The notes under the pieces were generated by a model that saw only the letters and a list, made by a program, of their open reading frames with translations, did not search any database and was not told the DNA's origin. This document shows, one piece after another, positions 41,632 to 43,865 of a stretch of 56,288 nucleotides of DNA. Made by a program: the position numbers and the translations under genes. This DNA is from an uncultured Flavobacteriales bacterium (GTDB lineage Bacteria; Bacteroidota; Bacteroidia; Flavobacteriales_D; CAJJDF01): the NCBI GenBank assembly GCA_905182785.1, contig CAJJDF010000053.1:1-56288 (forward strand). Reading direction: 5' to 3'. Position 1 is the stretch's first letter; the number at the start of each line of letters is the position of its first letter.

Positions 41632-42957
41632 ATGAAAAAATTACCTCTGCATGTAAAGATTTTAATGGGAATGATCCTAGGAGTTGTTTTTGGGTTTATA
41701 ATGATGAAGGTAGATGGAGGAAAGTCTTTCACCATAGATTGGATAAAACCTTTAGGAACCATTTTTGTTAATTTGCTAAAACTTATCGCAATCCCCTTAA
41801 TTGTAGCCTCTTTACTAAAAGGAATTTCCGATTTGAAAGACATTTCTAAGTTTGCAAAAATTGGAGGAAGATCAATTTTAATTTATGTTGGGACTACTAT
41901 TATTGCCATTACAATTGGACTATTTGCAGTAAACATTGCAAAACCAGGAAGTGGAATATCGGACGAAACTATTGCCACTTTAATAGAAACTTACGCAGGA
42001 AATTCAAATATAGAGGGTAAAATAACTACGGCAGCATCACAACAGCAATCTGGCCCTTTAGATTTTTTAGTTGATATGGTTCCAAGTAATTTATTTAGTG
42101 CATTGAGTGATAACGGAAGTATGCTGAAAGTAATTTTCTTCATCATTTTCTTTGGAATAGCTATGCTTTTGGTTCCTGAAAAAAGTGCAAAACCAATAAA
42201 AGAATTTTTTGATGGATTGAATGACATTGTACTTAAAATGGTTGACTTAATAATGCTTACAGCTCCATTTGCTGTGTTTGCATTACTAGCAACTGTTATA
42301 GTATCAGCAGAGAGCTGGGAAATAATTGTTGCCTTAATGAAATATGCTTCTACTGTAATTGTTGGTTTATTATTAATGGTAGGATTCTACCTTTTATTGG
42401 TTGGATTAATTGTGAAGAAAAATCCATTTTGGTTTTTAAAACAATTAGCTCCAGCTCAATTGTTAGCATTTACTACAAGTTCAAGTGCTGCAACACTTCC
42501 TGTAACTATGGAACGTGTAGAAGAACACTTGGGAGTAGACAAAGAAGTATCCAGTTTTGTTCTTCCTGTAGGTGCGACAATTAACATGGATGGAACCAGT
42601 TTGTACCAAGCAGTTGCAGCCGTTTTTATTGCTCAAGCTCTTGGAGTAGATTTAACCTTTGGCGATCAAATTACAATTGTGATTACAGCACTTATGGCTT
42701 CTATTGGTTCTGCGGCTGTTCCAGGTGCAGGAATGGTTATGTTAGTGATTGTATTGCAAGCTGTAGGAAAATTCTCTCCAGAACAAATTGCAATTGGGTT
42801 AACACTTATTTTTGCTGTAGATAGACCTCTTGATATGCTAAGAACGACAATCAATGTGACAGGAGATGCAACAGTGTCAATGTTGGTAGCTAAATCTATG
42901 GGGAAATTACACGACCCAAAACCTAAAAACTGGGATGACAACTTAGAAAACCTGTAA
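41632..42957 (+). CDS. Dicarboxylate/amino acid:cation (Na+ or H+) symporter
   Basis: A DAACS-family (TC 2.A.23) carrier of 441 residues for glutamate, aspartate or C4-dicarboxylates. The signature stretches are intact: AFTTSSSAATLPVTMERVEE (hairpin HP1), NMDGTSLYQAVAAVFIAQ (helix 7, Na+/H+ site), SIGSAAVPGAGMVML (HP2) and DRPLDMLRTTINVTGDA (helix 8 with the Arg/Asp/Thr substrate site). The gene ends 96 bases before a strong hairpin terminator. I cannot choose between Na+ and H+ coupling. Confidence 0.95.
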   Translation: MKKLPLHVKILMGMILGVVFGFIMMKVDGGKSFTIDWIKPLGTIFVNLLKLIAIPLIVASLLKGISDLKDISKFAKIGGRSILIYVGTTIIAITIGLFAVNIAKPGSGISDETIATLIETYAGNSNIEGKITTAASQQQSGPLDFLVDMVPSNLFSALSDNGSMLKVIFFIIFFGIAMLLVPEKSAKPIKEFFDGLNDIVLKMVDLIMLTAPFAVFALLATVIVSAESWEIIVALMKYASTVIVGLLLMVGFYLLLVGLIVKKNPFWFLKQLAPAQLLAFTTSSSAATLPVTMERVEEHLGVDKEVSSFVLPVGATINMDGTSLYQAVAAVFIAQALGVDLTFGDQITIVITALMASIGSAAVPGAGMVMLVIVLQAVGKFSPEQIAIGLTLIFAVDRPLDMLRTTINVTGDATVSMLVAKSMGKLHDPKPKNWDDNLENL

Positions 42958-43052
42958 CTATTTAATTTTTTTTGGGAATAGTAATATTATATATATAAAG
43001 CTTGGGAATTATTTTTAATAAATAGACCAAACAAAAAAACTGGAATAATAAA

Positions 43053-43078
43053 AAAAGGATTCCCGAAGGAACCCTTTT
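43053..43078. terminator. Terminator with UUCG loop, serving the small gene and possibly the symporter
   Basis: An 11-bp stem with a single A-C mismatch closes a 4-base loop. Read on the minus strand the loop is C(UUCG)G, an extra-stable tetraloop, and is followed by seven T, so it is a strong terminator for the minus-strand unit from 43375. On the plus strand four T follow, enough for weak termination of the symporter mRNA. Confidence 0.85.
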
Positions 43079-43085
43079 CTTTATC

Positions 43086-43171
43086 ATCTAACTACTACTA
43101 ATAGTAGATAACTATTGTCACGAACCACCGTGACTGTTTTTGGAATGAAACTATTAAAAACATTCCAAAAA
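43086..43171 (-). ncRNA. Chain of three hairpins in the 3' region of the 46-aa gene
   Basis: Read on the minus strand after the stop at 43185: stem TTTTTGGAATG / CATTCCAAAAA with a 13-base loop (43137-43171), stem GTCACG / CGTGAC with a 6-base loop (43117-43134), and CTACT / AGTAG (43096-43108) within the wider ATCTA / TAGAT pairing (43086-43110). The terminator follows at 43053. Together they form a compact structured 3' untranslated region of about 100 bases. It may act as an sRNA in its own right; this is inferred from structure only. Confidence 0.45.
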
Positions 43172-43184
43172 AGGTCTAAATATG

Positions 43185-43325
43185 TTAGTTATTAAAAGTT
43201 ACAAGTTGCAACTTAAGAGAATTCATGTATTCTAGTTGTTCAATGTATTCTTTTACCAACCCTCTATTCATTAATTCGATTGCTCTGTCTCGAGCCATTT
43301 GGTACTTTAGTTTTAAGTTAATCAT
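43185..43325 (-). CDS. 46-residue small protein under a sigma-54-like promoter
   Basis: The ORF runs from ATG 43325 to TAA 43187-43185. The peptide starts MINLKLKYQMARDRAIELMN and continues RGLVKEYIEQLEYMNSLKLQ, then LVTFNN. It reads as two amphipathic, charged helices separated by a RG turn, without a signal or membrane segment, the pattern of a small regulatory or binding protein. Its own promoter (43360-43375), about 23 bases of leader, and a strong terminator 107 bases past the stop support a real gene. The plus-strand frame over it is a low-complexity shadow. I recognise no family. Confidence 0.65.
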   Translation of the reverse strand: MINLKLKYQMARDRAIELMNRGLVKEYIEQLEYMNSLKLQLVTFNN

Positions 43326-43359
43326 ACTAATTAGTTTTATGGTTTCTGATTGTTATATT

Positions 43360-43375
43360 ACAATAGACGTGCCAA
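43360..43375 (-). promoter_or_regulatory. Sigma-54 (RpoN)-type -24/-12 promoter
   Basis: On the minus strand the sequence TTGGCACGTCTATTGT matches the RpoN consensus TTGGCACG-N4-TTGC at all but the last base, with exactly 10 bases between the -24 GG and the -12 dinucleotide. Transcription would start near 43348. Upstream, at 43411-43436, direct GTTAAAA copies 10 bases apart and a GTTAAA/TTTAAC palindrome could serve an enhancer-binding protein; this last point is weak. Confidence 0.6.
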
Positions 43376-43583
43376 CCTCTGTTTTATTTCATCCTATCTC
43401 TTGTAATTTATGTTAAAATTCGTTAAAACATTTAACACGGAAAGTAACTTATGATACACTTACAATTATAACGGTTGTAACGTACTAATATTTTAAGAGA
43501 ATATAATTTTAACAAAATTTAAGTTTCTTTAGTCTGTAAAGAATAGTCAAACTTTTCACCTGTTTATATATGTACGAATGAAA
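43376..43583. other. Gene-free stretch upstream of the sigma-54-like unit
   Basis: AT-rich, with only short open frames on both strands. Apart from the GTTAAAA copies at 43411-43436 I see no gene, repeat or RNA structure. Confidence 0.3.
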
Positions 43584-43865
43584 CTAGTAAATGGTTTGTT
43601 TTGGTCTTAAATTAATTCCTTTTATTGTATTTAGAATTATTTCTAACGACTTATGAAATTCTTCTTTCTGATTTATAGATAAATGCTTTTCGCTTAATTC
43701 CAAAATAGTACTTATTATATCGAATTCTTTTTGCTATTCTTCCATTTGATGATTAAATAATTCTATTTCTAATGATTTATTTAATCGAGATAAATCTGTT
43801 GGATAACTATATCCTCTCTTATTTCTTCTAATTGCAATTTCATTTATAAATATATAAATTGGCTA
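43584..43865 (-). pseudogene. Interrupted ORF of unknown family
   Basis: One frame gives about 90 coding-like residues (NEIAIRRNKRGYSYPTDLSR, LNKSLEIELFNHQMEE, then after a stop QKEFDIISTILELSEKHLSI, EEFHKSLEIILNTIKGINL), broken by a single TAG at 43734-43736 and lacking an ATG at the head. Composition and helical pattern argue that it once was a gene. I do not recognise the protein. Confidence 0.4.

Follow-up and report, generated by a model that had tools for sequence, protein, structure and literature searches.

Results

A sigma-54 promoter, a 46-codon ORF and a structured 3′ region

The window, a 56,288 nt stretch of an uncultured Flavobacteriales genome, carries on its minus strand a compact unit in which a -24/-12 element and a leader of 23 bases precede an ORF of 46 codons, with three hairpins and then a terminator with a UUCG loop behind it, each located where the initial annotation had placed it (Table 1). 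The box reads TGGCACG-TCTA-TTGTA (43374-43359), with the -24 GG and the -12 element at the correct spacing; it is contained in TTGGCACGTCTATTGTA on the minus strand, and nowhere else does the window match TGGCAYRNNNNTTGYW exactly. From the -24/-12 spacing, the transcript would start near position 43348. The initial annotation had regarded the last base of the -12 element (TTGT rather than TTGC) as a mismatch. The T is indeed present, but it is not a defect, since T is the commonest base at this position (93 of 130 aligned boxes of the microprotein family). Upstream of the unit, also on the minus strand, positions 43580-43842 appear by eye to hold a decayed ORF with in-frame stops.

Table 1 Features of the unit in the window
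Feature	Position	Strand	Sequence or form	Remarks
Sigma-54 -24/-12 promoter	43359..43374	-	TGGCACGTCTATTGTA	Box kept upstream of homologue ATGs
5′ leader (predicted)	43326..43348	-	23 nt, A-rich	Without Shine-Dalgarno sequence
Microprotein gene	43185..43325	-	MINLKLKYQMARDRAIELMNRGLVKEYIEQLEYMNSLKLQLVTFNN; 46 aa and stop, ATG start	Homologues, purifying selection, predicted structure
Hairpin H1	43137..43171	-	Stem UUUUUGGAAUG / CAUUCCAAAAA, loop UUUUUAAUAGUUU	One compensatory pair among congeners
Hairpin H2	43117..43134	-	GUCACGGUGGUUCGUGAC	Same sequence in three species; a single site in each genome
Hairpin H3	43083..43112	-		Sequence diverged among congeners, hairpin there retained
Intrinsic terminator	43050..43081	-	C(UUCG)G loop, seven T	Sequence diverged among congeners, hairpin and T-run retained

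The ORF is a conserved gene

Homologues of the 46-aa protein are present in five of the six genomes of the window's family. Across the window's order, a single-sequence search detected homologues in 34 of 399 genomes, and a profile search at E ≤ 0.01 detected them in 61 of 399, a few chance matches included; at least eight families of the order are represented. A further 80 named loci, including those of Tenacibaculum, Polaribacter and Lutibacter, belong to the Flavobacteriaceae, in another order; we assigned family f17 to the Flavobacteriaceae because its proteins are identical to those of named Tenacibaculum, Polaribacter and Aureibaculum loci. The microprotein family is seemingly absent from the 199 genomes of genus g75, which, judged by its size and abundance, is probably Flavobacterium. 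The gene and H2 are both missing from a fourth congener, G001 (96% complete), through either a loss or an assembly gap. Separately, we discarded the weak protein matches L095, L098, L099 and L117-L122 as chance, because they lie in long ORFs or lack a sigma-54 box.

The conserved ORF is roughly 30-56 residues long, mostly 45-50, and is built around a core of A15, M19, G22, Y27 and L31, of which M19, G22 and Y27 show no variation among the aligned sequences and A15 almost none. Its length is tightly kept, with 83 of 145 homologues being exactly 47 aa. Comparisons inside the genus give a pN of 0.09-0.16 against a pS of 0.79-0.82, and the median dN/dS is 0.14 over 832 unsaturated pairs of 47-aa ORFs, mostly from Flavobacteriaceae. 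These values bear on a reading in which the unit encodes a noncoding small RNA and the ORF is spurious. The strong folding of the 3′ half would fit such an RNA, as would the fact that no annotation family includes the ORF; however, conservation of the protein over many families, pN far below pS and the number of ORFs of one exact length make this reading scarcely credible, and we rejected it on the grounds of codon-level selection and the tightly kept ORF length. We conclude that the ORF is a real gene under strong purifying selection, and from that selection we read that it is probably translated.

AlphaFold2 predicts a single antiparallel helical hairpin (helices H2-21 and H24-45; mean pLDDT 93). 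A Foldseek search against the PDB returned nothing significant; its best match, to McsA (E 3.1), and a PDB profile match to kinesin light chain were set aside as what any helical hairpin yields. No family in Pfam, NCBIfam or PHROGs corresponds to the window protein, and the earlier statement that no annotated gene family explains the unit is thus upheld for both Pfam and NCBIfam. We interpret it as a single-copy gene belonging to a microprotein family of Bacteroidia that has not been described before.

The sigma-54 promoter is conserved together with the microprotein

If the promoter belongs to the gene, as the initial annotation had proposed, the same element should precede the homologues in related genomes. 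We called a box at a score of ≥9 of 12, located 30-75 nt before the ATG. Such a box is present at 61 of 65 homologues outside the Flavobacteriaceae and at 67 of 80 within them, counts that refer to related sequences rather than independent events, against a background rate of 2-3% obtained with column-shuffled motifs or random positions. We used these two controls in place of a reversed motif, whose 18 of 65 matches do not give a clean estimate because GCACGG recurs within the box. The distance from box to ATG is mostly 45-50 nt, and the few Flavobacteriaceae homologues without a box include several labelled Lutibacter.

The protein searches were made without using the sigma-54 box. When homologues are grouped by strength of the protein match, the box is found at 34 of 34 with at least 60 bits, 18 of 19 at 40-60 bits, 4 of 4 at 25-40 bits and 7 of 8 below 25 bits; given that the searches are independent of the promoter, the box also validates the very weak matches. 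Box-bearing homologues span families f1, f2, f3, f4, f8, f9, f10 and f12 of the window's order as well as the Flavobacteriaceae. Because the box is kept before nearly all homologues in both groups, we conclude that the conserved core consists of the promoter and the protein, which together form an ancient unit of Bacteroidia.

The window's genome also has the machinery that such a promoter needs: it encodes RpoN (PF04552, E 1.2e-52), and two strong PF00158 matches correspond to enhancer-binding proteins, neither of whose genes is adjacent to the microprotein unit. The presence of both components, which had been named as a check on the proposal, together with conservation of the promoter with the peptide, bears out the description of the locus as a self-contained sigma-54 unit. 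A search upstream of the homologues for shared enhancer dyads found none in common outside the Flavobacteriaceae; the dyads conserved in the Flavobacteriaceae overlap an apparent sigma-A promoter of the divergent gene, and may belong to that promoter. Other good sigma-54 boxes in the window's genome lie upstream of secreted or envelope-type genes, at L034 (secreted protein), L036 (VWA-like), L037 (thioredoxin-like) and L039 (DUF3108-like), all named by eye. The strict sigma-54 pattern has no match at chaperone genes in this genome.

The 3′ hairpins are conserved within the genus and differ between lineages

The 3′ region of the unit in the window folds much more stably than shuffled sequences (z = -7.9; 0 of 200 shuffles), as do those of two congeners (z = -9.3 and -5.6). 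H1 and H2 are conserved in all three congeners possessing the gene. Between G000 and G003, H2 is identical at 18 of 18 positions and H1 at 31 of 33, whereas identity at third codon positions is just 50-57%. Each genome has a single H2, at the microprotein unit only, and this hairpin stays with the unit even though the downstream neighbour differs between congeners. Eight pairs have changed on both sides, a number reached in 4 of 500 shuffles; this covariation comes from three sequences only and is weak. H1 contributes one compensatory pair, and the H3 and terminator hairpins are retained although their sequences have changed. In Rfam, no family matches at the gathering score, and we treat three sub-threshold matches as chance. 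The 3′ elements do not pair with the unit's own leader consistently better than shuffled sequences do. On the plus strand, H2 (43117-43134) and the T's behind it are scored as a terminator, so that H2 could also serve transcripts of the SDF-family symporter gene at 41632-42957.

Outside the genus, the microprotein ORF is followed by a plain terminator, by a different element, or by an S4-domain (Hsp15-like) gene with which it forms a short operon. The sister family f10 has its own 3′UTR element, TAGGTTAAAGGTTGRAA, located directly before the terminator (loci L012, L018, L019, L020, L025 and L029). It occurs once per genome, at the microprotein locus, in five of the six genomes that have it, and twice in the sixth, G091. 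The second G091 copy (L232, C4:28958) is likewise followed by a terminator, and lies 17 kb from the gene with no small ORF in the stretch read; it is possibly a detached RNA copy of the element. In f10 genus g32, a hairpin has the same GGUGGUUC loop on a different stem. Family f4 has no terminator after the microprotein ORF, which runs into the S4-domain gene, and in the Flavobacteriaceae there is often little sequence before a convergent serS (assigned by eye). The 3′ hairpins expected in homologues are found as H1 and H2 in three congeners, but most relatives lack the chain. We conclude that the hairpin chain is not ancient but lineage-specific.

These observations bear on the suggestion that the locus specifies a dual-function RNA, that is, a microprotein mRNA whose 3′ end (H1, H2 and the terminator), whole or processed, would act as an sRNA on other mRNAs of the sigma-54 response by base-pairing or protein-binding. 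The near-identity of H1 and H2 beside diverged third codon positions argues for a function of the RNA, as do the compensatory pair in H1, the H3 and terminator hairpins kept despite changed sequence, the confinement of H2 to the microprotein locus, and the separate elements of f10 and g32. However, the 3′ elements differ by lineage and are missing from most, Flavobacteriaceae loci often lead straight into serS, and weak covariation, inconsistent leader pairing and the lack of an Rfam family also speak against it. We therefore hold this suggestion tentatively as an account of the locus; a regulatory RNA would be at most a lineage-specific addition. In the window's genus, a dual-function RNA is plausible from the sequence comparison, and would be additive to the role of the protein.

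Gene neighbourhoods

A nadD-like gene lies upstream of the unit at 24 loci (some of them duplicate fetches), mostly in the order yicC-gmk-nadD. In f4, the microprotein ORF ends 16-45 nt before the Hsp15-like gene (S4 domain by Pfam), with no terminator between them, and an acetyltransferase-like gene (by eye) comes after the S4 gene. In f3, the unit is beside lysE-type or DUF3108 genes. In f8, it is directly downstream of a gene for an NtrC-type enhancer-binding protein, on the same strand, in three distinct genomes.

The f8 arrangement could suggest that the microprotein is a feedback regulator, tuning the response through contact with RpoN or with the sigma-54 activator, and a small helical hairpin such as that predicted could bind an AAA+ or receiver domain. 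However, adjacency to the activator gene is limited to f8, with the unit elsewhere following yicC-gmk-nadD, lying beside lysE-type genes or preceding serS, and in the window's genome it is next to neither activator gene. We consider a role of this kind improbable.

Discussion

A proposed role in the sigma-54 stress response

The best explanation for the data, to which we give a probability of about 0.6, is that the microprotein, a helical hairpin located in the cytosol, is induced by stress as part of a sigma-54 proteostasis and envelope regulon. Protein-folding or envelope stress would lead an enhancer-binding protein to open the sigma-54 promoter, giving a transcript of ~300 nt. The soluble helical hairpin would then bind a partner, which could be a ribosome or nascent-chain factor, a chaperone, a protease or the activator itself, and the microprotein would thus act as a small adaptor of the response. 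In the window's genus, the two sequence-conserved 3′UTR hairpins would probably stabilise the mRNA or form a regulatory RNA end.

In F. psychrophilum, sigma-54 promoters have been mapped (PMC9723704) before the gliding operon and before groESL, dnaK, grpE-dnaJ, htpG, clpB, lon and skp, and a survey of Flavobacteriia found heat-shock genes to be enriched for sigma-54 promoters (PMC12316311). Given the operon with an Hsp15-like gene in f4 and these published regulons, we infer that the microprotein is an effector of the same response. The proteostasis link draws on neighbours in a family other than the window's and on the regulon of distant flavobacteria. In the window's genome, the other sigma-54 boxes before secreted or envelope-type genes speak for the proposed role. 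Counting against it are the lack of chaperone genes among the strict sigma-54 matches of that genome, the seeming absence of the microprotein family from g75, probably Flavobacterium, the genus of the published regulon mapping, and the failure of the searches to yield a significant structural match or an enhancer site. A broader version, in which a Bacteroidia-wide, sigma-54-controlled folding-stress microprotein replaces or supplements parts of a sigma-32-type heat-shock response, with lineage-specific 3′ regulatory RNAs, strikes us as rather unlikely.

The role of sigma-54 is poorly understood in Bacteroidota, and COG-based regulon surveys overlook genes without a family. A conserved promoter before a family-less protein of ~46 aa points to an overlooked basic stress-response protein. 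With its sigma-54 promoter kept nearly wherever it is present, the microprotein is a good marker of the sigma-54 regulon, and it offers a handle on the role of sigma-54 in the phylum: one promoter and one 46-residue protein that can be deleted and tagged. The varying 3′UTR elements would provide a natural case of RNA function added to the end of an mRNA.

Comparison with known systems

DUF6435 (PF20027) has weak profile similarity to the microprotein family (matches for 8 of 41 members, with E 0.0011 at best), although the window protein itself has no profile match at the gathering score. The Hsp15-like S4-domain heat-shock protein is co-oriented directly behind the microprotein in f4, but it is a separate, larger protein (123-124 aa) and does not adjoin the gene in the window. 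Dual-function and 3′UTR-derived sRNAs, for example that released from glutamine synthetase mRNA (PMC9731577), resemble the unit in combining a short coding part with a structured, conserved 3′ end; the 3′ end of the microprotein mRNA differs in not being conserved across the family. The sigma-54 (SM4) regulon of F. psychrophilum (PMC9723704) likewise places Bacteroidota -24/-12 promoters on proteostasis and envelope genes, and it includes one small transcript, Rfp36 (THC0290_N_0510). The 199 genomes of g75, probably the genus of that species, yielded no homologue of the window's peptide.
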